Below are positions 1,354 to 57,722 of a stretch of DNA of 64,000 nt, piece after piece. The position numbers and the translations under genes were made by a program. Source of the DNA: Endobacter medicaginis (GTDB lineage Bacteria > Pseudomonadota > Alphaproteobacteria > Acetobacterales > Acetobacteraceae); contig NZ_JACHXV010000005.1 in assembly GCF_014192375.1 (NCBI RefSeq), positions 124,001-188,000 of the forward strand. The letters are read 5' to 3'. The notes below the pieces were generated by a model. The model saw only the letters and a program-made list of their open reading frames with translations. It did no database searches and was not told where the DNA came from. The stretch's first letter is position 1. Each line of letters begins with the position of its first letter.

Positions 1354-2295
1354 ATGTTCAAGACCCTGCTCCGCATCGGCAGCGCACTCGCGCTGTGCGC
1401 GGGGGCTGCCCTGCCGGCTCATGCGGACGGCAGGAAACTCACCACCGTCGGCATCTCCGTCGGCTCGCTCGGCAACCCCTATTTCGTCACCCTCGCCAAG
1501 GGTGCGACAGACGCCGCGCACGCGCTCGATCCGTCGATCCGCGTCACCGCGGTCTCGGCCGATTACGACCTTAACAAGCAGTTCACCCAGATCGACAACT
1601 TCATCGCCTCCGGCGCGCAGCTCATCCTGCTCAACGCGGTCGACCCCAAGGCGCTCAAACCCGCCATCGCCCGTGCCAACAAGGCGGGCGTGATCGTCGT
1701 CGCCGTCGATGTCGCCGCCGACGGGGCCAACGCCACCGTGCAGACCGACAATGTCGCCGCCGGCCGCATCTCCTGCGCCTACCTTGCCGACGCCATCGGC
1801 CACAAGGGCAACGTCATCATCGAGAACGGCCCTCAGGTCTCCGCCGTCATCGACCGCGTCAATGGCTGCAAGGAGGCGCTCGGCAAGGATAATGCCGTTC
1901 ACATCCTCGACGCCGCCCAGGACGGCAAGGGTTCGCGCGACGGTGGCCTCGCCGTGATGCAGAGCCTGCTGGTGCGCTTCCCCGAGGTCGCCGGCGTGTT
2001 CACCATCAACGACCCGCAGGCGATCGGCTCCGACCTCGCCATGCGCCAGGCGCACCGCACCGGTATCAAGATCACGTCTGTCGATGGCGCCCCCGACATC
2101 GTCTCGGCGCTCAAGCACGGCGGCGCCATCATCGCCTCCGCCTCGCAGGACCCCTATGCGATGGGCAGACTGGGCTTCACCACCGGCCGCGACATCCTCG
2201 ACGGCCACCCGCCCGCGCAGACCGTCACCCTGCTGCCGCCCAGGCTGGTGACCCAGCAGAACGTCGCGTCCTATGTCGGCTGGACGGATCACTGA
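1354..2295 (+). CDS. Sugar ABC transporter periplasmic substrate-binding protein
   Basis: 313 aa with a clear Sec signal peptide (MFKTLLRIGS start, hydrophobic core, cleavage likely after AHA near residue 24). The mature part is a Peripla_BP_4 / RbsB-like two-lobed binding protein: VGISVGSLGNPYF opens lobe 1, and a DAAQDG segment and the NDPQAIG turn follow. The ATG at 1354 is chosen because it starts the signal peptide and has AGAGGAAA upstream; longer open frame to the left has no homology-like content. It is the last gene of the import operon and delivers the sugar to the permease. The ligand is not deducible from sequence alone. Confidence 0.92.
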   Translation: MFKTLLRIGSALALCAGAALPAHADGRKLTTVGISVGSLGNPYFVTLAKGATDAAHALDPSIRVTAVSADYDLNKQFTQIDNFIASGAQLILLNAVDPKALKPAIARANKAGVIVVAVDVAADGANATVQTDNVAAGRISCAYLADAIGHKGNVIIENGPQVSAVIDRVNGCKEALGKDNAVHILDAAQDGKGSRDGGLAVMQSLLVRFPEVAGVFTINDPQAIGSDLAMRQAHRTGIKITSVDGAPDIVSALKHGGAIIASASQDPYAMGRLGFTTGRDILDGHPPAQTVTLLPPRLVTQQNVASYVGWTDH

Positions 2296-2470
2296 GACCG
2301 GTCGCAGGGGCGCTGCCCCTGCACCCCGGCAGGAGGCTCGGCCTCCTGCACCTCGGTCCATGAGAAAAAGGGGATGGGCTTGCCCATCCCCTTTTTCTCA
2401 TCAAACGGGATCGCAAAGGGCTCAGCCCTTTGCCGGGGGTGCGGGGGCAGCGCCCCCGCGCCGGTCTCAG
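2292..2470. repeat. GC-rich multi-hairpin intergenic element (copy 1), bidirectional terminator candidate
   Basis: The gap between convergent rbsB-like and argG genes is folded throughout. Outer arms CTGAGACCGG (2292-2301) and CCGGTCTCAG (2461-2470) include both stop codons. Inside lie GCAGGGGC/GCCCCTGC (2304-2322), GCAGGAGGC/GCCTCCTGC (2329-2349), a perfect 20-bp-arm hairpin with a 2-nt loop (2360-2401), GCAAAGGGC/GCCCTTTGC (2413-2433) and GCGGGGGC/GCCCCCGC (2441-2459). Related elements lie at 50511-50640 and 57570-57722. The central hairpin has A and T runs and could end transcription from both sides. Confidence 0.8.
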
Positions 2471-3708
2471 AGCGCGCCGCCCCGACGGCCCACCATGGCG
2501 CCGAGGCGCAGGCGGAGGGCGTTGAGCTTGATGAAGCCCTGGGCGTCGACCTGGTCGTAGGCGCCCTGGTCGTCCTCGAAGGTGACGACGCGGGTGTCGT
2601 AGAGCGAGTTGGGGCTTTCGCGGCCGGTGACGATGACGTTGCCCTTGTAGAGCTTCAGCCGCACGCGGCCGGTCACGCTGTGCTGGCTCTCGTCGATCAG
2701 CGCCTGCAGCATGCGACGCTCGGGACTGAACCAGAAGCCGTTGTAGATCAGCTCGGCATAGCGCGGCATCAGGCTGTCCTTGAGGTGGCCCGCCTCGCGA
2801 TCCAGCGTGATGGTTTCCATGTTGCGGTGCGCGGCGAGCAGGATGGTGCCGCCGGGGGTCTCGTAGATGCCGCGCGACTTCATGCCGACGAAGCGGTTTT
2901 CGACCAGGTCGAGGCGGCCGATGCCGTTCTCGCGGCCGAGCGCGTTGAGCTTCGTCAGCAGGGCGGCGGGGGAGAGGGCTTCGCCGTTGATCGCCACCGG
3001 GTCGCCATGGACGAAATCGATGCTGATCTCGGTGGCGCGGTCGGGGGCGGATTCGGGCGAGATCGTGCGCTGGAACACGATCTCGTCGGGCGGGGAGGCG
3101 GGGTCTTCGAGGATCTTGCCCTCGGAGGAGGAGTGCAACAGGTTCGCGTCCACGCTGAACGGCGCCTCGCCGCGCTTGTCCTTGGTGACGGGAATCTGGT
3201 GGGTCTCGGCGAATTCGAGCAGCTTCGTGCGTGAAGTGAGATCCCATTCGCGCCAGGGAGCGATGACCTTCACGTCGGGCTTGAGCGCGTAATAGCTCAG
3301 TTCGAAGCGGACCTGGTCGTTGCCCTTGCCGGTCGCGCCATGGGCGACGGCGTCCGCACCCACGGCCTCGGCGATCTCGATCTGGCGCTGGGCGATCAGC
3401 GGGCGCGCGATGGAGGTGCCGAGCAGGTACTGTCCCTCGTAGAGGGTGTTGGCGCGGAACATCGGAAAGACGAAGTCCTTCACGAAGGTCTCGCGCAGGT
3501 CCTCGACGAAGATCTCCTTCACCCCGAACATCTCGGCCTTGCGGCGCGCGGGTTCGAGCTCCTCGCCCTGGCCGAGATCGGCGGTGAAGGTGACGACCTC
3601 GCAGCCGTAATGCTGCTGCAGCCACCGCAGGATCACCGAGGTGTCGAGGCCGCCGGAATAGGCGAGCACCACCTTCTTGACGTCACGATGTTTCGGCGGG
3701 CTGCTCAC
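2467..3708 (-). CDS. argG: Argininosuccinate synthase
   Basis: 413 aa, normal for the family (about 400). It joins citrulline and aspartate with ATP to give argininosuccinate, the seventh step of arginine synthesis, in the cytoplasm. The ATP pyrophosphatase loop SGGLDTS is at residues 18-24; further family landmarks are [13 protein letters not shown] and the substrate-contacting [13 protein letters not shown] take the GTG at 3708 (protein starts VSSPPKHRD...): the conserved domain begins right after it, and upstream sequence to 3897 overlaps a terminator and is not protein-like. It converges on the sugar ABC operon and shares the hairpin element at its 3' end. Confidence 0.97.
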
Positions 3709-10629: not shown

Positions 10630-10749
10630 ACTCTTCTTGTTCTGAAAAAAAGAACACAACAAGACTTCTACCCAAAGAAGGATGCGCGCACCCGCACGCA
10701 TTCGTCCAGCGGATCGAAGTTTCTTGGTTCTTTTTTTCAACAAGGAACA
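10630..10749. repeat. AT-rich hairpin repeat (family 2, copy A)
   Basis: This fills the entire ispA-tlyA gap. The left half CTTCTTGTTCTGAAAAAAAG and the right half with TTCTTGGTTC ... AAGGAAC resemble the copy at 39861-39931 (same order: TTCTTxTTCTGAA...GAA, AAGAC, AAGTT, CTTGGTTCTTT, GAAC). Both halves can form hairpins, less perfect than in the other copies, and a 45-bp GC-rich stretch separates them. The ispA stop codon abuts its right edge. Confidence 0.7.
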
Positions 10750-39851: not shown

Positions 39852-39860
39852 GGTAGGGAC

Positions 39861-39931
39861 CTTCTTTTTCTGAAGAAAAAGAAGCAAAAAGACGTTTGAA
39901 AGTTCTTTGGTTCTTTCTTTCGGGAAAGAAC
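39861..39931. repeat. AT-rich hairpin repeat (family 2, copy B)
   Basis: Two perfect hairpins in tandem: CTTCTTTTTC/GAAAAAGAAG (39861-39884, loop TGAA) and GTTCTTTC/GAAAGAAC (39910-39931, loop TTTCGG), joined by AAAAAGACGTTTGAAAG. The first hairpin is identical to that at 46882-46905. It lies between murU and addB on the same transcript path and is strikingly AT-rich against its surroundings. Confidence 0.85.
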
Positions 39932-46553: not shown

Positions 46554-46880
46554 ATGAGCGAAAACACCGTCGCCGTGACCGACGACACGTTCGAGACCGA
46601 TGTGCTGAAGGCCGAAGGGCCGGTGCTGGTCGATTTCTGGGCCGAATGGTGCGGCCCCTGCCGGATGATCGCCCCGGCACTCGACGAGATCGGCGCCGAG
46701 TTCAAGGGCAAGCTGACCGTCGCCAAGGTCAATATCGACGACAACCCGCTCACCCCGAACAAGTATGCGGTGCGCGGCATTCCGACCATGATCCTGTTCA
46801 AGGACGGCAAGCCGGCGGCGACCAAGGTGGGTGCCGCACCCAAGAGCCAGCTCAAGGAATGGGTCAGAAGCGCGATCTGA
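46554..46880 (+). CDS. trxA: Thioredoxin 1
   Basis: 108 aa with active site WCGPC at residues 32-36, preceded by VLVDFWAE, and the cis-Pro in RGIPTM. Standard cytoplasmic disulfide reductase, kept reduced by TrxB (not in the window). The ATG at 46554 is 11 nt from AAGGAG and gives the family length; two starts at 46542 and 46545 are too close to it. Position after addA is conserved in alphaproteobacteria. A hairpin repeat follows the stop directly. Confidence 0.97.
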
Positions 46881-46881
46881 T

Positions 46882-46905
46882 CTTCTTTTTCTGAAGAAAA
46901 AGAAG
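46882..46905. repeat. AT-rich hairpin repeat (family 2, copy C), probable terminator region
   Basis: CTTCTTTTTC (46882-46891), loop TGAA, GAAAAAGAAG (46896-46905): identical to the first half of the copy at 39861, followed by the related text CATAAGGACTTCTG. It starts 1 bp after the trxA stop, in the gap to a convergent gene, and could end transcription from both sides. Only the first half of the element is present. Confidence 0.85.
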
Positions 46906-46975
46906 CATAAGGACTTCTGAATTTTTCGGGCGGTTCTGGAGTGGCTGGCGCCGGGTCCGAACCGCCCGATGTCAT

Positions 46976-48926
46976 TCAGAACGCATAATTTACACTTACA
47001 TTGCCGCCGTTATAGGTGGTGGTGCGGCCGGCGAAGCGGCCGAGATAGCCGATCTGCGCGCCCAGGCGCGGCGTCAAGTCGAGAGCGATGCCGCCCTGCG
47101 CCTCGCCCCAGCGTCGGTCGCCGGTGAAACCCGGCATGGCGAAGCGGCCATTGAGCGTCACCAGACCGGCCTCGACCGTGCGGGTCTCGGCGGCGAAATC
47201 CTGCACATAGGCGGCCTCCGCATAGGGGCGCATCGTGACACCGCGCAGCGTGATGCTGGCCTGCAGCCGCGCGCCGACGCTGCCGGGCAGGGACTGGCGA
47301 CGCTGGCGGCCGAACCACATCGCGGTCGCGTCGCTGCCATGTTCGGCATAGCCGTCGATGTCGGTGTCCATATAGGCCAGCGCGACGAACGGGCCGGCCT
47401 TGAGGGCCGAATTGCCGAACCACCAGCCGGCGGTGAGTGCGGACTGGAACGCGGTGCCGTGCGTCGTGCCCATCTCGGTGTGCATCAGCGGGCCGATCGC
47501 GAAGCGGCGCGAGATCGACGAGAAGCCGAGTCGCTGGGCGCCCACCAGGGCCGCGGCATAGAAGCCGCGCGGTGCGGCATACTGGCCGAACAGCGTGCCG
47601 CCGACGGTGTCGCTGTCGAAGGCCAGCGGGGCGGTGGCGGTATCCTGATGGCCGACCCCGCCGGTGACTTCCACGCCGAGACTGAACCCGCGCGGCAGGG
47701 TCTCGATCGCGCCCACGGTCATCGTTCCGGTCACCGCATGGGCGGTGGGCAGATAGGTCTGTCCGGCGACGCGCTGCACCACCCCGCTGCCGGCGGCGAA
47801 CAGGTGCAGGCCGGCGTGGGGACGGGCCTGGGTTGCCAGCAATTCGCCGAACACGGTGTCGCGCTCCTGGTCCAGGGCGGCGAGCGGCTGTTCGCCGAGC
47901 AGCGAGACGAGCTGCGGGGCGACGATCTCGGCGACGATCGCATCGGCGACGTAGCTGTGCACGGTCGAGGTCGGGTGCACGCCATCGGCGAACAGATAGG
48001 TGCTGGCGGCATTGGCCGCCGCAAGCGTCGAGGCGGTGCACTGGATCGACGAGCCGGTGGTGCAGGCGGTCTGGGTGGTGTTGGTGATGCCGAAGGCGGA
48101 CGGGTCGGCGACCAGTTCGTTGAACAGCGCATGCAGGTTCACCGCGATGACGCCAGACTGCGCTCCCGCCAGCCCCGTGTTGAGCGCGGTGTTGAACTGG
48201 CTCGACAGCAGGCTCTGCTCCGCGAGCGTGCCGGATACCAGCTTCTCGCCGTTGGCCGCGGAGATGGTGTGGCTGGTGTCGGGCACGTTGACGACGATGA
48301 TCGCCTTCGCGCCCGCCTGCTGAAGCCGCGCGACCAGGGCGGCCTCCTGGGTGCCGGCGGCGATCATCGCAGCCGAGGCCTGGGCGGGCGTCTCGACGGC
48401 GGACACGCCCTCGAGGCTGGCGATCAGCGCCGGCGACAGGCCTGTCGCGGCCGCGAACTGTCCGGCGGCGACGGCGGTGCCGTGATAGAACAGGTCGTTC
48501 GCGCCCGCCTCGACCCAGGTGAGTTGGTTGCCGGAGAGTCGGATGGGCGGCGAGATAGGCGGTGATCTCCTGCGTCTCGGTCGGCACGAAAGCGGCCTGC
48601 GCGGGTGCATTGTGCAGTACGCCGGCGCCGCCGACGGCGTAGTTCGTGCCGCCAAGCAGCGAGGCCTTCGTCGCCAGCCCGAAGGCCAGGCCGGTATCTT
48701 CGGCTGCGGTCAGGCCGGGATTGGTGGTGAAGCGGGCGATCCCACCGAGCCCGGCGAGGATCGCGTAGTCGCCGCCATCGCTGAGGCTGTCGCCGAAGAT
48801 GGTCTCGCCGGCGAAGGGGGTGGCCCGGCCGCTCGCGAGTGCGGGGGGCGATCCGGCCGCCAGCCCGGTCAGGCAGGCCGTGGCGGCGAGCAGGGCGCGG
48901 CGACGGGCCGCGATGATGGACGACAT
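46976..48926 (-). pseudogene. Autotransporter SGNH/GDSL esterase, disrupted by a frameshift
   Basis: The N-terminal frame has a signal peptide (ALLAATACLTGLAAG...) and esterase block I FGDSLSDGG (Ser47), plus NYAVGGAGV. From about 48540 the protein continues in the next frame: LSGNQLTWVEAGANDLF (block III), FADGVHPTSTVHSYVAD (block V, catalytic Asp/His), then a C-terminal autotransporter beta-barrel ending VSVNYAF with the required terminal Phe. One base too many (or two too few) near 48539-48545 separates the halves. Left unrepaired, translation gives about 127 correct residues, then Arg-rich sequence without barrel. Repaired length about 649 aa, normal for EstA/EstP-type lipases on the outer membrane. 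True mutation or sequence error cannot be told apart here. Confidence 0.85.
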
Positions 48927-49010
48927 GACGAAGCTCTCCCGGTCAATGCGGTCTGTGATGCCGCTTGAGACCGAGTTAGAGCCGATTGTCGCGCTTGCGC
49001 AATGGGATGG

Positions 49011-49643
49011 TCAGGCGAACGGATATGCGATGAAGGCCGCAGTGGCTTCCGCGCGTCGTGACAGGTCCGCGAGCGCCGGGTGGTCTGCGACGCTGACCAG
49101 GTCCGGCAGCCTTTCCCTGGCAAAGCGCCAGGCGACGGCGAGGCTGAGATCGGCCTGCATCGGCGCCGGGCCGAACAGCCAGTCGCGGGTGGCGGCCCAT
49201 GTGTCGAGATCGGCCTCGATCTCCCGCAGACCGCCATGGAGCTGGCCCTGCACGCGTTCGACCCAGGGGGCGTGACGCTTCTCCGCCGGGCGGAGATTGG
49301 CCTCGTAGACGAGCTGCACGGCCTTTTCACACACCGCCAGGGACAGCCCGACCAGTCTCTGGGCCCGCGCGTACGCAGGCAGGTCCAGAGGGTCGAGCGT
49401 GACCGCCATTCCGCGGGTCTGCGCCAGCCGGGTCGCATAAGCGAGGATCAGACCGGACTCCGCGATGGCCACGCCATCGTCGGTGATCAGGGTCGGCGCC
49501 TTGACCGTCGGATTGAGGGCGGCAAACGCGTCGTAATCGCGAAAGACCGACAGGGGCCGGTGTTCGAAGGGCAGTCCCAGCACGTGCAGCGACACGGCGA
49601 CCCGGCGCACATAGGGCGAGTCGAGCATCCCGATGAGCTGCAT
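49011..49643 (-). CDS. Glutathione S-transferase family protein
   Basis: 210 aa from ATG at 49643; a GTG at 49655 adds four residues and overlaps hpnK. N-terminal thioredoxin fold: MLDSPYVRRVAVSLHVLGLPFEH, then the cis-Pro region KAPTLITDDGVAIAESGLIL. The C-terminal helical domain has APMQADLSLAVAWRF. The likely glutathione-activating residue is Ser or Tyr in SPYVRR. Substrate unknown. It follows hpnK with almost no gap and so is probably co-transcribed with the hopanoid genes, but nothing known ties GSTs to hopanoids. Confidence 0.87.
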   Translation of the reverse strand: MQLIGMLDSPYVRRVAVSLHVLGLPFEHRPLSVFRDYDAFAALNPTVKAPTLITDDGVAIAESGLILAYATRLAQTRGMAVTLDPLDLPAYARAQRLVGLSLAVCEKAVQLVYEANLRPAEKRHAPWVERVQGQLHGGLREIEADLDTWAATRDWLFGPAPMQADLSLAVAWRFARERLPDLVSVADHPALADLSRRAEATAAFIAYPFA

Positions 49644-49644
49644 A

Positions 49645-50505
49645 TCAAGCCGCACCCCGCGCCGCGCGGCTCCAGTCGGTGCGGATCACCCCTGCCGCGT
49701 CGAAGGCGCCGGCAACACCGGGGTCGAGCAAGGTTGCGAGCTCGGTCTCGTGCTCGTAACCCGGCATCAGCCGCTCCAGCAGCGCATCGCGCCGCGTGGC
49801 GGGATGAAAATAGATCTCGCTGAGCCCGTCCGGCAGGGAGGCGGCGAGATCACGCACGCGCGGCGCGGTCATGTGGCCAGACCAGGCGATGCCGAAACAG
49901 GCATCGTTGGTTGTCAGCCGCGCGGCATGCGCCTGGGCGCGCAGCAGCCGGGTCCAGCGGCGCAGCAGCCCGGCGGGAATGGTGTTGCCCGGGCTCGCCC
50001 CGCCGCGACGCAGGGGGGCGGGTGGCTCCATCGGGATGCGCAGCGCGCGCAGCCCGTAGCGCCGGCCGATGCCGATCAGCATCCGTCCGACGATCGGGTG
50101 CAGATGCATGTGCTTGTGGGCGTTGGCGTGATCGAGCTTTAGCCCGGTGGCGGCGAAGGTGCTGAATTGCGCCTCGATCTCGCGCCGCATTTCCTCGCGG
50201 GCGAGCGGGCTGATCGCCAGCAACCGGGCGAGACCGGTCTGGTCGTGGCGGATGTCGCCCGAGTCGTCGGTGATCTTCGGCAGGCTGTGCGGCGCGCAGA
50301 CCGGCCGTCCGGCGACCGCCACCACATGCAGACCCACCTTCAGGTCCGGCATGCGCTTCGCCCGCTCCACCGCGTCGGCAGCGGCCGGGCCTGCGACCAT
50401 CAGGCTCGCGGTGCTTAGAAATCCGGCCTTGTGGGCCTGCTCGACGGCCTCGTTGACGCCTTCCGACAGACCGAAATCGTCGGCGGAGATGATGACGCGT
50501 TTCAT
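49645..50505 (-). CDS. hpnK: Hopanoid biosynthesis deacetylase HpnK (YdjC/ChbG family)
   Basis: 286 aa. Family metal site: ISADDFGLSEG (D9, D10) and LDHANAHKHMHLHP (about 125-138). In Burkholderia HpnK removes the acetyl group from the N-acetylglucosaminyl hopanoid made by HpnI, giving the free amine before HpnJ acts. Position hpnI-hpnJ-hpnK supports this. A 130-bp GC-rich hairpin element separates it from hpnJ. The extended loop with LRRGGASPGNTIPAG near residue 165 is a variable part of the family. Confidence 0.93.
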   Translation of the reverse strand: MKRVIISADDFGLSEGVNEAVEQAHKAGFLSTASLMVAGPAAADAVERAKRMPDLKVGLHVVAVAGRPVCAPHSLPKITDDSGDIRHDQTGLARLLAISPLAREEMRREIEAQFSTFAATGLKLDHANAHKHMHLHPIVGRMLIGIGRRYGLRALRIPMEPPAPLRRGGASPGNTIPAGLLRRWTRLLRAQAHAARLTTNDACFGIAWSGHMTAPRVRDLAASLPDGLSEIYFHPATRRDALLERLMPGYEHETELATLLDPGVAGAFDAAGVIRTDWSRAARGAA

Positions 50506-50510
50506 GAGTT

Positions 50511-50640
50511 CATCCGGGGCTCTGCCCCGGACCCCGCCAGGAGGCTGGGCCTCCTGGACCTGCCGAAATCGGACGGGGTCCAGGCGCACGGCGCCTGGCG
50601 GGGTGCGGGGCAGAGCCCTGCGAAAGCGCCAGCGCCGGGG
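50511..50640. repeat. GC-rich multi-hairpin intergenic element (copy 2), inside the hopanoid operon
   Basis: Hairpins: CCGGGGC/GCCCCGG (50514-50530), CCAGGAGGC/GCCTCCTGG (50537-50557), CCAGGCGC/GCGCCTGG (50580-50598), and a longer pairing ACCCCGCCAGG with CCTGGCGGGGT that encloses them. Shares the order of CAGGAGGC-type and GGGTGCGGGGC-type stems with copies 1 and 3 but lacks their central long hairpin. Fills the hpnJ-hpnK gap. Confidence 0.8.
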
Positions 50641-50645
50641 GTTGA

Positions 50646-52070
50646 CTACGCCGCGCTGCGTTCGCGCAGGAAGTGGAAGAACTCCACGCCCTCGCGCAGG
50701 CGGCGCTTCATCATCTGCGGGGAGCGCACCATCTCGTTGACGATGGAGGCGATTTTCGGCGCGCGGAAATAGAACTTCCGATAGAAGGTCTCGACGCTGT
50801 CGAAGATCTCGGTATGCGACAGATGCGGGTAGTGCAGCGGCGCGATCTGGATGCCGTGCTCGTCGATCAGTTCGGCGTTCGATGCATCCAGCCAGCCGTT
50901 CTCGGTCGCCTGCTTGTGCAGGAAGGTGCCGGGATACGGCGCGGCCAGCGAGACCTGCAGCGTGTGCGGGTTGATCTCTGTGGCGAACCGGATGGTTTCC
51001 TGGATGGTCTCCTTCGTCTCGCCCGGCAGGCCGAGGATGAAGGTGCCGTGGATCTTGATGCCGAGATCGTGGCAGTCCTTGGTGAACTGCTTCGCGACCT
51101 CGATGCGCATGCCCTTCTTGATGTTGTGCAGGATCTGCTGGTTGCCGCTCTCGTAGCCGACCAGCAGCAGCCGCAGGCCGTTGTCGCGCAGCACCTTGAG
51201 CGTCTCGCGCGGCACGTTGGCCTTGGCGTTGCACGACCAGGTCACGCCCATCTTGCCAAGCTCGCGGGCGATCGCCTCGGCGCGCGGCAGGTCGTCGGTG
51301 AAGGTGTCGTCGTCGAAGAAGAACTCGCGGACCTGCGGGAACAGCGTCTTCGCCAGCCGGATCTCCTCGGCCACGTGCTGCGGGCTGCGGGTACGGTAGC
51401 GGTGGCCGCCCACCGTCTGCGGCCAAAGGCAGAAGGTGCAGCGCGATTTGCAGCCCCGTCCCGTGTAGATCGAGATGTAGGGGTGCATCAGGTAGCCGAT
51501 GAAATAGTCCTCGATGCGCAAGTTGCGATGATAGACCGGGGTGACGAACGGCAGCGAGTCCATGTTCTCGATCATCGCGCGCTCGCGATTGTGAACGATC
51601 GTCCCGTTCGCATCGCGGAAGCTGATGCCGTCCACATCCTTGAAGTCGCGCCCGTCGGCGATCTCCTTGATGGTGAAGTCGAACTCGTTGCGGGCGACGA
51701 AATCGATCACCGGGGCACGCTCGAGGCTTTCGTTGGGCTGCACCGCCACCTTTGCACCCACCAGGCCGATCTTGAGCGAGGGCTTCGCGTCCTTGAGCGC
51801 CTGCGCGACCTTCACGTCGGAGGCGAAGGAGGGGGTGGAGGTGTGCATCACCACCAGATCCGAGTCCTTCGCGGCCTTGATCACCGGCTCCATGCCAAGC
51901 CGGGCCGGCGGGGCGTCGATCAGCACGCTATCCTTCACCAGGGCGGCCGGCTGCGCGAGCCAGGTCGGATACCAGAACGACTTGATCTCGCGCTTGGCCT
52001 GATATCGAGACCCTGCGCCGCCATCGAACCCGTCGAAGGAGGGAGGCTGCAGGAACAGGGTCTTCATCAT
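50646..52070 (-). CDS. hpnJ: Hopanoid biosynthesis radical SAM protein HpnJ
   Basis: 474 aa. An N-terminal cobalamin-binding-like domain (about 1-170) precedes the radical SAM core with C207-x3-C211-x2-C214 in RGCKSRCTFCLWP and the glycine-rich FILGLPGET. HpnJ is needed in Burkholderia for the cyclitol ether head group of bacteriohopanetetrol, attributed to ring contraction of the glucosamine unit. Starts with tandem ATGs at 52070 and 52067; hpnI stops inside them (4-nt overlap), so translation is coupled. Confidence 0.95.
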   Translation of the reverse strand: MMKTLFLQPPSFDGFDGGAGSRYQAKREIKSFWYPTWLAQPAALVKDSVLIDAPPARLGMEPVIKAAKDSDLVVMHTSTPSFASDVKVAQALKDAKPSLKIGLVGAKVAVQPNESLERAPVIDFVARNEFDFTIKEIADGRDFKDVDGISFRDANGTIVHNRERAMIENMDSLPFVTPVYHRNLRIEDYFIGYLMHPYISIYTGRGCKSRCTFCLWPQTVGGHRYRTRSPQHVAEEIRLAKTLFPQVREFFFDDDTFTDDLPRAEAIARELGKMGVTWSCNAKANVPRETLKVLRDNGLRLLLVGYESGNQQILHNIKKGMRIEVAKQFTKDCHDLGIKIHGTFILGLPGETKETIQETIRFATEINPHTLQVSLAAPYPGTFLHKQATENGWLDASNAELIDEHGIQIAPLHYPHLSHTEIFDSVETFYRKFYFRAPKIASIVNEMVRSPQMMKRRLREGVEFFHFLRERSAA

Positions 52071-53320
52071 ACGGGCGTCTTTCTCATCGAGCCGGCCGGC
52101 AGTGATGCCGTTCTGGTCTGTGTTGTGGCGGCAGTGCCGCGCGGTGGCAAGTCCGTCTCCGCCAGCGCAGTACTCGCATCACCTCTGCGCGCGATATGGA
52201 GCGTGTGTCCGCGCCATGCCACCCGTCTGGAGGTGAAACTGCCGGCCATCACCAGCGCCGACAGCACGTCGCGCAGCGGCAGCGCCCAGAACGGCGTGCT
52301 GGGCGGGGCGCCGGAGAGGCGGTCCGTCAGTCGTGCGCTCGCCCAGCGGAATGCCCAGATGCCGGCGAACCAGATCCAGACAGCCTTGTGGGCGGGGGCC
52401 ATCAGCAAGGCGAGGAGTGCGAAGGCGAGCGGAAGCTGAAGCACCGACAGCGCGTAGCCGACCGGCTCCTGGGTGCGCACGGTGCGGCCCCAGCGCAGCT
52501 CGTGGCTGAGCATTGCACCGATCGAGGCATCCGCGACGGTGGTGGCGACGATCACCGGTGCCAGGGCCACGCCCAGACCAAGCCCACGCACCCGTCGGCC
52601 GAGCTCTCCGTCGTCGGCGACATGGTCGAGCAGCCCCTCGAGCCCGCCGGTGCGGGTCAGGGTGGCGCGCGACAGCGCCATCGTCGCACCCAGACAGTCC
52701 TGTCGCCCGAGCCAGCGGGCGATCAGGTTGCCGGGAAGGAAATTGTGGTTGATCGGCCCTGCCGCAAGACGCTCGGCCAAGCCGGGCCGGGCCGGGCGCC
52801 CGTGATAGATGGTGGTCGCAAGGCCGATCCCGGGTGCGAGCACGGCCGTGATGACGCGGGCGATGGTATCGGGTGGCGCGTGGATGTCGGAATCCGAGAT
52901 CACCAGCCAGTCATGCCGGGCGGCCGGCAGCATGTTGATCAGATTGCCGATCTTGCCGTTGCCGGCATGCGGGGTGGGATCGATCACCAGCGCGATGTCG
53001 CGGTCCGGATGGGCGGCGATCAATGCCCGCGCCACCTCGATCGCCGGATCGGTCGGCGACTGCACGCCGAGCACGATCTGCATCGACGGGTAGTCCTGCC
53101 GCACCATCGATTCGAGCGCTGCGGCCAGCATCGGCTCGTTGCCGTACAGCGGTTTCAGTATGCTGACCGGCGGCAGGGCGGATGCGCGCGGCAGCCGCGT
53201 CGCGCGGTGAGCGAATCCGGCAAGGGCGGCGAGGCCCGCACCGGCCTGAAGACAGCCGAATACGGCAGCAGCGAGGGCCGCGCGAGCGAGCTCCGGCAGG
53301 ATGACGTCACTGCTCAGCAC
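52067..53320 (-). CDS. hpnI: Hopanoid biosynthesis glycosyltransferase HpnI
   Basis: 417 aa from GTG at 53320. GT2 family, ceramide-glucosyltransferase-like: PPVSILKPLYGNEPML (50-65), ISDSDIHAPP with the DxD-type metal site (143-145), ADDGELGRRV, LRWGRTVR for the Q/RxxRW motif, and C-terminal membrane helices. It adds N-acetylglucosamine to bacteriohopanetetrol. A TTG at 53401 would lengthen it into hpnM; I prefer the GTG, though its ribosome-binding site is weak. The C-terminal 35 residues are Arg/Thr-rich and not conserved. Confidence 0.92.
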   Translation of the reverse strand: MLSSDVILPELARAALAAAVFGCLQAGAGLAALAGFAHRATRLPRASALPPVSILKPLYGNEPMLAAALESMVRQDYPSMQIVLGVQSPTDPAIEVARALIAAHPDRDIALVIDPTPHAGNGKIGNLINMLPAARHDWLVISDSDIHAPPDTIARVITAVLAPGIGLATTIYHGRPARPGLAERLAAGPINHNFLPGNLIARWLGRQDCLGATMALSRATLTRTGGLEGLLDHVADDGELGRRVRGLGLGVALAPVIVATTVADASIGAMLSHELRWGRTVRTQEPVGYALSVLQLPLAFALLALLMAPAHKAVWIWFAGIWAFRWASARLTDRLSGAPPSTPFWALPLRDVLSALVMAGSFTSRRVAWRGHTLHIARRGDASTALAETDLPPRGTAATTQTRTASLPAGSMRKTPV

Positions 53321-53378
53321 GGACGCGCGCCCAACACCTCTACCTGTTCTTGCGAGACCGAACCAACGCGCGCTTGTC

Positions 53379-54023
53379 TTACGAGCCCGACAGGGCGGCA
53401 ACCTTTTTCTTCAGGCCGGCGATCAGTGCCGGCGCGCCGCCCTGTGCGAACTGCGCGGTGAAGTCCGAGCGCTGCACCGCCACCTGGCTGATGGTGCCGT
53501 CGAGCAGGACGTCGGTCGCCTGCCAGCCGGTCGGGCCCTGATGGACGACATAATTCACATCGGTGCCGCTGCCGCCGGACGTGATCTGGGTGTGGACGAG
53601 CTGTGCGCCGGGGATCGCCGCATAGGGCGTTGCGTCATGCACCTCAAGGCCGGTGTCGCTGCCGGCGGCGAAATTGGACAGGTAGCGCGCCACGGTGAAA
53701 TCATGGAACGCCGTCAGCAGTTCCTGTTTCTGGTCGGCGGGGATCGAGTTGTAACGCAGCCCGACCGAGGCCTTGAGCACCGCCGGCAGATCGAAGGCGC
53801 GGTCGATCAGCGGACCGACGATGGCGACGCGGGCCTTGTAGTCGCTGAGCTTCTCCGCTTTCGCGAGTCCGGCCGAAAGGGCCTGGAGCGGCGCGGTCAC
53901 TGCGTCGGCGCTCTCGGCGGCCAGGGCCGGAGCACAGAAAAGGCCCGGTGCGCCGACCAGGGCGAGACCTCCCGCGCCCGCACCCAGGACGATGGCACAA
54001 CGCAGGAGGCGGGGCAGGCGCAT
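53379..54023 (-). CDS. hpnM: Hopanoid-associated MlaC/Ttg2-type protein HpnM
   Basis: 214 aa with an N-terminal signal peptide (hydrophobic AIVLGAGAGGLALVGAPG, cleavage about ALA at residue 36). MlaC/ABC-toluene-resistance fold: VGLRYNSIPADQKQELLTAFHDFTVARYLSNF and the GPTGWQATDVLLDG segment. HpnM is a recurrent hopanoid-locus relative of the periplasmic phospholipid carrier MlaC, so it may move hopanoids between membranes, as an inference. Lies between dxs (21 bp) and hpnI on the same strand. Confidence 0.9.
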   Translation of the reverse strand: MRLPRLLRCAIVLGAGAGGLALVGAPGLFCAPALAAESADAVTAPLQALSAGLAKAEKLSDYKARVAIVGPLIDRAFDLPAVLKASVGLRYNSIPADQKQELLTAFHDFTVARYLSNFAAGSDTGLEVHDATPYAAIPGAQLVHTQITSGGSGTDVNYVVHQGPTGWQATDVLLDGTISQVAVQRSDFTAQFAQGGAPALIAGLKKKVAALSGS

Positions 54024-57569: not shown

Positions 57570-57722
57570 GCGGGGCTGCGCCCTGGCAGTCGGCTGGGCC
57601 TCCTGCACCTCGATATGCTGTAGAAGCAGGAAGGATGGGCCTTGGCCACCTTTCCTGCTTCCATAAATCGCGGGTGCAGGGGCCTGAGGCCCCTGCCGGG
57701 GGTGCGGGGGCGGCGCCCCCGC
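57570..57722. repeat. GC-rich multi-hairpin intergenic element (copy 3)
   Basis: Between hpnH and the CorC-like gene. A central hairpin with arms around GAAGCAGGAA (57623-57632) and TTCCTGCTTC plus inner GGCC-TT-GGCC corresponds in place to the long hairpin of copy 1. To its right, GCAGGGGCC/GGCCCCTGC (57676-57696) and GCGGGGGC/GCCCCCGC (57704-57722, the latter stem shared exactly with copy 1). To its left, GGGCCTCCTGCACCTCG is shared with copy 1. Confidence 0.8.

Follow-up and report, generated by a model that had tools for sequence, protein, structure and literature searches.

The hopanoid locus of Endobacter medicaginis, contained in a window of 64,000 nucleotides of contig NZ_JACHXV010000005.1, raises the question of what a GC-rich hairpin element is doing between hpnJ and hpnK, and of how such a structure arises. 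The first-pass annotation had proposed that a member of a repeat family interrupts an otherwise tightly packed operon at this point, with hpnI and hpnJ overlapping and hpnK nearly touching the glutathione S-transferase (GST) gene. Gene names assigned from NCBIfam and Pfam profiles (Table 1) agree with this compact arrangement: hpnI and hpnJ overlap by 4 nt, and hpnK and the GST gene touch or overlap, depending on the start codon. The interruption was likewise borne out, the spacer holding a strongly folding composite palindrome at 50514-50621, and the assignment to a repeat family is upheld by two further copies within the window. By eye, the Shine-Dalgarno sequence of hpnK is only a weak GGA, located at the edge of the element.

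Table 1. Genes of the hopanoid locus, parts of the hpnJ-hpnK element and further copies of the repeat, in window positions.
Feature	Position	Strand	Profile, score or remark
GST-fold gene (glutathione S-transferase)	49011..49655	-	PF13417
hpnK, downstream of the element	49645..50505	-	TIGR03473, 345.8 bits
hpnJ-hpnK intergenic spacer, 140 nt	50506..50645	-	hpnJ stop 50646-50648, hpnK ATG 50503-50505
Half-unit A-B: hairpin A (GGGGC-nnn-GCCCC), ACCCC linker, hairpin B (CAGGAGGC-nnn-GCCTCCTG)	50514..50562	+	R1, 71.5 bits, the row being itself among the 18 training rows of R1
Short centre (CCGAAATCGG) of the hpnJ-hpnK copy	50563..50574	.
Inverted half-unit B'-A'	50575..50621	-	R1, 40.2 bits; outside the R1 training rows
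hpnJ, upstream of the element	50646..52070	-	TIGR03471, 828.6 bits
hpnI	52067-53401		TIGR03472
HpnM	53379-54023		TIGR03481 at 133.5 bits, under the cut-off of 160.1
Complete second copy, lying between two convergent genes	2305..2458	.
Third copy in the window, occupying the gap between two + genes	57575..57721	.

The element consists of two inverted half-units, each with two hairpins, flanking a centre; in larger copies of the family this centre is itself a long palindrome, different in each copy. The predicted fold of the RNA at 50500-50650 reached -102 kcal/mol, against a mean of -73.4 for shuffled sequences (z -6.28; none of 200 shuffles as low). Hairpin B of the inverted half-unit differs in sequence yet remains self-complementary (CAGGCGC..GCGCCTG). 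The outer arm of the copy between convergent genes (TGAGACCGG/CCGGTCTCA) covers both stop codons, while the third copy has mutually unmatched outer flanks and a weak left half (nhmmer E 0.0004) that was missed by the covariance model R1. No T-run was seen by eye after the hpnJ-hpnK element on either strand of 50506-50645, so the element lacks this mark of an intrinsic terminator. It was not recognised as a known RNA family, Rfam giving no match up to an E value of 1 in 48000-53000. The number of hairpin modules varies within the family, a copy at L303 showing by eye three hairpins per side instead of two. In another copy (L269:2001-2132), the centre holds GTAGCCTTA, the reverse complement of its own left flank TAAGGCTAC, perhaps through fold-back copying.

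R1 was built from alignment A2, comprising 18 paralogous half-units of the Endobacter medicaginis genome; four rows with 7-bp stems (at window position 50577, L004, L022 and L023), misaligned in the first alignment, A1, of 22 rows, were excluded from both. The model found 49 half-units in this genome, forming 34 elements (15 paired and 19 single). This makes the arrangement BIME-like, with two inverted palindromic units and a spacer in many dispersed intergenic copies. Across the 18 half-units, 97.8% of cells pair, compared with 45-57% in slid controls, and 31 cells changed on both sides against 9.5 in shuffles (0 of 500). Two of five measures of covariation fail to exceed shuffles: there was no excess of pairs changed on both sides (6 vs 4.4; 61 of 500) or of pair types (11 vs 10.8; 312 of 500).

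The half-unit was present in 62 of 100 Acetobacteraceae genomes, Endobacter medicaginis included, in a sample of one genome per genus with at most 60 candidates scored in each, so that counts saturate. A class sample, with stricter filters and at most 31 candidates scored per genome (31 units were recovered in Endobacter medicaginis), returned it in three of 190 genomes, namely Endobacter medicaginis, G191 (1 match) and G311 (13 matches). G311 belongs to another family of the class, and its matches (L288, L290-L293) could reflect transfer or parallel origin. Neither the half-unit motif string nor a description of the family had a match among the titles and abstract openings of the literature collection searched. 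A second, AT-rich hairpin repeat (CTTCTTTTTCTGAAGAAAAAGAAG) also lies close to gene ends in the window (10630-10672, 39858-39900 and 46879-46921); by eye, L242 and L244 have related sequences between hpnJ and hpnK, and so does one site in the genus of G075 (L342).

The placement of the 34 elements relative to genes was judged with a simple codon-usage gene caller made for this analysis. Eighteen lie in codirectional gaps, 11 in convergent and 2 in divergent ones, 2 were called intragenic and 1 was unplaceable; three of the 29 codirectional or convergent elements overlap a called gene (L259, L272, L286), and one of the 34 abuts a start codon (L285). The family tends to lie directly behind stop codons. 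Free room of at least 30 nt was available in 14 of the codirectional or convergent gaps, and in 11 of these 14 the element follows a stop codon at a distance of 0-12 nt, compared with a mean of 2.06 and a maximum of 9 in 100,000 random placements in the same gaps, the 12-nt limit having been picked after the distances were seen and convergent gaps being scored by the nearer stop. The three others are L285, at 418 nt, L275, at 37 nt, and the copy behind hpnJ, which begins 24 nt past the hpnJ stop, more distant than most copies. Other copies are found inside the fabD-fabG and pyrB-pyrC pairs, and another separates an rmuC-like gene from an L11 gene. At L284:2165-2190, the outer arm seems by eye to reach over the start codon of the next gene downstream, which the folded RNA would therefore hide.

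This location bears on the possibility that ribosomes stall at the stop codon and lower the yield of the upstream protein, an effect cited for E. coli REPs that lie no more than 15 nt from a stop (excerpt of PMC12306157). Most copies, at 12 nt or less from a stop, would lie within reach of such an effect; the hpnJ copy, however, starts beyond the 15-nt range, and we regard stalling as quite improbable here.

The junction was then compared among relatives, using hpnK loci drawn from two collections with some duplicates. The genes hpnJ and hpnK adjoin at 146 of 170 hpnK loci; 37 of these gaps are under 30 nt (at least one, the 16 nt of L230 in G075, being mis-measured and really an element running into both frames), 100 are of 30-250 nt and 9 are longer. 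In favour of the first-pass annotation, the spacer in relatives is no single conserved non-repeat sequence, its length running from -4 to 1172 nt (146 loci) and the 100 spacers of 30-250 nt falling into 41 sequence clusters. Their folding is stronger than that of shuffled sequences, with a mean z of -2.61 and 17 of the 41 clusters below -3. Strict intrinsic terminators were detected in 7 of the 41 clusters, which take in 34 of the 100 loci, whereas shuffles gave 0.18 (maximum 1); this too favours the annotation, as some relatives do break the operon at hpnJ-hpnK. A looser terminator count gave 11 of 41 clusters against a shuffle mean of 7.85 and maximum of 11, which is not significant. Relatives likewise have wide gaps between hpnI and hpnJ, with a median of 91 nt at 101 loci (vs 72 for hpnJ-hpnK), so hpnJ-hpnK is not the sole loose joint.

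A rival explanation is that selection maintains the element between hpnJ and hpnK as a functional RNA, a terminator or attenuator, its paired changes being ordinary compensatory evolution. The unrelated strict terminators and the strong folding in the same gap are consistent with it, as is the position of elements directly behind stop codons. However, the element has no U-tract, its unit is repeated throughout the genome and the family, copies occur within the fabD-fabG and pyrB-pyrC pairs, and 37 of the 146 resolved junctions are shorter than 30 nt (at least one, L230, mis-measured). Selection alone would also not easily give the inverted copy of a host spacer, matching at 22 of 22 nt, that is described below. 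Overall, this explanation appears unlikely.

A scan with the covariance model covered 70 of the 170 hpnK loci, those left out being mostly from Acetobacter, Komagataeibacter and Gluconobacter, and placed a half-unit inside the hpnJ-hpnK gap at ten. These are the locus of the window genome, that of G055 (L047), five of Gluconacetobacter (L079, L090, L095, L096, L097), L030 and L133, which have identical spacers and of which L133 is from Tanticharoenia, and that of G075 (L230). In the last of these (L230:1660-1820), the hpnJ frame ends within the element and hpnK apparently begins within it, so that the final residues of one protein and the first residues of the other seem to be encoded by the element. 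Half-units were also observed just downstream of hpnK at L026, L027 and L126, in two relatives and Gluconacetobacter diazotrophicus.

The two arms of a copy often match each other beyond the shared core, and the matching is specific to the copy. In 16 copies of the Endobacter medicaginis genome, outer flanks scored 6.56 within the same copy and 4.47 when swapped (0 of 20,000 permutations), three of the 16 scoring under their swapped mean. In eight copies of G075 and G056, the corresponding values were 9.56 and 7.04 (p 0.00045); 12 of 20 fetched copies were tried for this set, and four of the 12 were dropped with the right-hand hairpin unmatched by the pattern. In G056, G075 and their congeners, the 8 nt adjoining the core belong to the family consensus. 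With these excluded, 13 copies of these genomes scored 13.73 against 8.02 when swapped (0 of 20,000), and with 12 nt excluded 11.65 against 7.49 (p 0.00015), the set being those copies of L177-L196 and L294-L336 found whole by the pattern with 45 nt on both sides. Copy-specific arm identity reaching into the host flank, as expected of template switching, is thus present at the level of the family; it is not evident in the hpnJ-hpnK copy, which has no clear outer arm (4.5 vs a swapped mean of 3.57). Several family features are therefore not seen in the hpnJ copy, given its unclear outer arm and its distance from the stop.

Mirroring of host sequence can extend into genes. At convergent gene pairs, the mirrored part includes by eye both stop codons at window 2293-2475, L271, L272 and L261. 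An inverted host copy forms one outer arm at three filled sites, and two of these include the last codons and stop of the gene. At the junction of an ABC-ATPase and an acetyltransferase gene (site 3), the right flank in G340 is the reverse complement of the left at 22 of 22 positions beyond the core; the match is 18 of 23 in G341 and 12 of 12, continuing further with a gap, in G075. At L333, 30 of 32 nt are mirrored, spanning the last codons and stop of the upstream gene, and sisters conserve these on that side. The dnaN end is mirrored at the dnaN-recF site of G075 (flank score beyond the consensus 19.0 vs 6.6 swapped). The filled dnaN-recF copy of G142 (L310) lacks an inverted host arm, and the inverted host copy is therefore not an obligate by-product of insertion.

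Orthologous sites were compared by searching 200 nt of one flank of ten G075 copies in seven genomes of its genus, G075 included. At eight of the ten sites, at least one congener was without the unit within 350 nt; at L180, one of the eight, the sister bears another palindrome instead, and the sisters L302 and L338 contain decayed, sub-threshold units. Such elements thus turn over between sister species in this genus. Site 3 carries the element in G075, G340 and G341 and a plain 33-nt spacer in G337. Compared with this empty spacer, the left flank gave 17, 14 and 12 in the three species, and the right flank, read forward, 3, 4 and 3. The right arm is accordingly the copy at this junction, because the G337 spacer resembles the left flank and the right flank mirrors the left. 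At site 3, both arms have changed together between species. Among 115 pairs followed there from G075 to G340, 75 were the same, 9 changed on one side, 18 changed on both sides, 9 were broken and 4 were gapped; from G075 to G341, 13 changed on both sides and 30 were broken, and the other four directed comparisons gave 8-17 and 11-26, respectively. Over all six, broken pairs thus numbered 9-30 of 105-118, vs 8-18 changed on both sides.

Turnover of this kind could also be the work of a transposase. One alternative is that an ordinary DDE transposase, with a preference for positions immediately after genes, moves the element as a MITE, and that the inverted host copies arose later by accident. 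Inverted ends are present, near-identical copies including the centre occur at separate G056 loci (L192, L193, L189), and many units in G056 and G075 have the same score; sites without the unit in sister species would also follow from such movement. However, by-eye inspection of filled and empty pairs showed no direct target duplication, and the copy-specific arms reach into host sequence. No mobilising enzyme was found in the search for an autonomous relative, which used PF01797. We consider a MITE of this type improbable, if less so than ribosome stalling.

A second alternative is that a RAYT (Y1) transposase mobilises the element as a REPIN/REP; the inverted pairs of GC-rich hairpins between genes do resemble REPINs and BIMEs. 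The Y1 family PF01797, to which RAYTs belong, is without a match in the Endobacter medicaginis genome, so the RAYT gene expected of a REP/REPIN system was not found there. Of the 100 family genomes, 12 have a PF01797 match, including 5 of the 20 with at least 40 units (G032, G048, G075, G090, G095) vs 7 of the 80 others (Fisher p 0.06); the remaining 15 high-copy genomes, Endobacter medicaginis and 14 more, are without one. The four weak matches among these five have RAYT-like N-termini, judged by motif. At the five Y1 loci of high-copy genomes, however, a unit never borders the Y1 gene on both sides: one unit lies 118 nt away in G075, G048 has a pair some 0.6 kb away from the open frame, and there is no unit around the Y1 genes of G032, G090 and G095 (in G090, within 2.5 kb). 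The Y1 genes with RAYT-like N-termini at L368 and L370, from two high-copy genomes, are followed by other palindromes resembling REPs of their own. REP palindromes are defined by a terminal GTAG or CGTC (excerpt of PMC3733652), and such an end is absent from the aligned half-units of the Endobacter medicaginis genome; GTAG stands beside hairpin B' in several G075 copies. RAYT mobilisation is disfavoured, and we hold it to be very unlikely.

Our preferred explanation, held with moderate confidence, is that the element is a BIME-like palindromic repeat, restricted to this lineage, in which each arm of a copy can be copied from the other, probably through template switching at replication, a process reported to be capable of creating and maintaining hairpins (excerpt of PMC8794818). 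Fold-back template switching during replication would copy one arm onto the other, keeping each copy self-complementary, and would sometimes carry the adjoining host flank to the far side. A bolder version, which we advance tentatively, is that a mobile or self-renewing palindrome family settles directly behind stop codons and mirrors the end of the host gene onto its own far side by fold-back copying, each copy thus making a giant hairpin from the gene that precedes it. If arms are indeed copied from each other, paired stem changes here are no proof of a selected RNA. If the mirroring reading is true, these elements could write new 3' UTRs, stop codons and even protein ends and starts, as at hpnJ-hpnK in G075.

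The first-pass annotation had also suggested that hpnK and the GST gene are expressed at a different level from the genes upstream. REP elements stabilise upstream mRNA. By analogy, the very stable multi-hairpin after hpnJ may block 3' exonucleases and stabilise the upstream hopanoid message, which would leave hpnK-GST somewhat lower; a strong hairpin without a U-tract should protect the upstream message more than terminate transcription. An effect on hpnK and GST expression is a plausible prediction, and the first-pass interpretation as a whole is partly supported, the missing U-tract weakening it. The family provides dozens of natural replicates per genome, together with filled and empty sister sites, for testing how template switching builds palindromes, and it is also suited to testing what a giant hairpin directly after a stop does to operon expression.

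Among known systems, the element resembles an intrinsic terminator as a GC-rich hairpin directly 3' of a gene, and some relatives have terminator-like hairpins with T-runs between hpnJ and hpnK; unlike a terminator, it is without a U-tract, repeated, roughly symmetric and found inside operons. Its anatomy is BIME-like: an excerpt of PMC3733652 describes REP/BIME sequences as short palindromic units, often in inverted pairs, intergenic and near or overlapping gene ends, with sub-families having alternative complementary stem residues. However, the marks that define REP/REPIN elements were looked for and were absent, the double-hairpin half-unit being about 49 nt without the GTAG/CGTC end and the Endobacter medicaginis genome being without a RAYT match; the family differs further in its long copy-specific central palindromes and inverted copies of host flanks. 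Template-switch palindromes, as portrayed in excerpts of PMC8794818 and, for mitochondrial coding palindromes, PMC6649704, share with the family identical arms within a copy, arms that change together and perfect stems of arbitrary sequence. Unlike these palindromes, the element is tied to a repeated core family with many sites per genome, behind stops. The copy-specific arms and inverted host copies of the family fit an origin by replication template switching.
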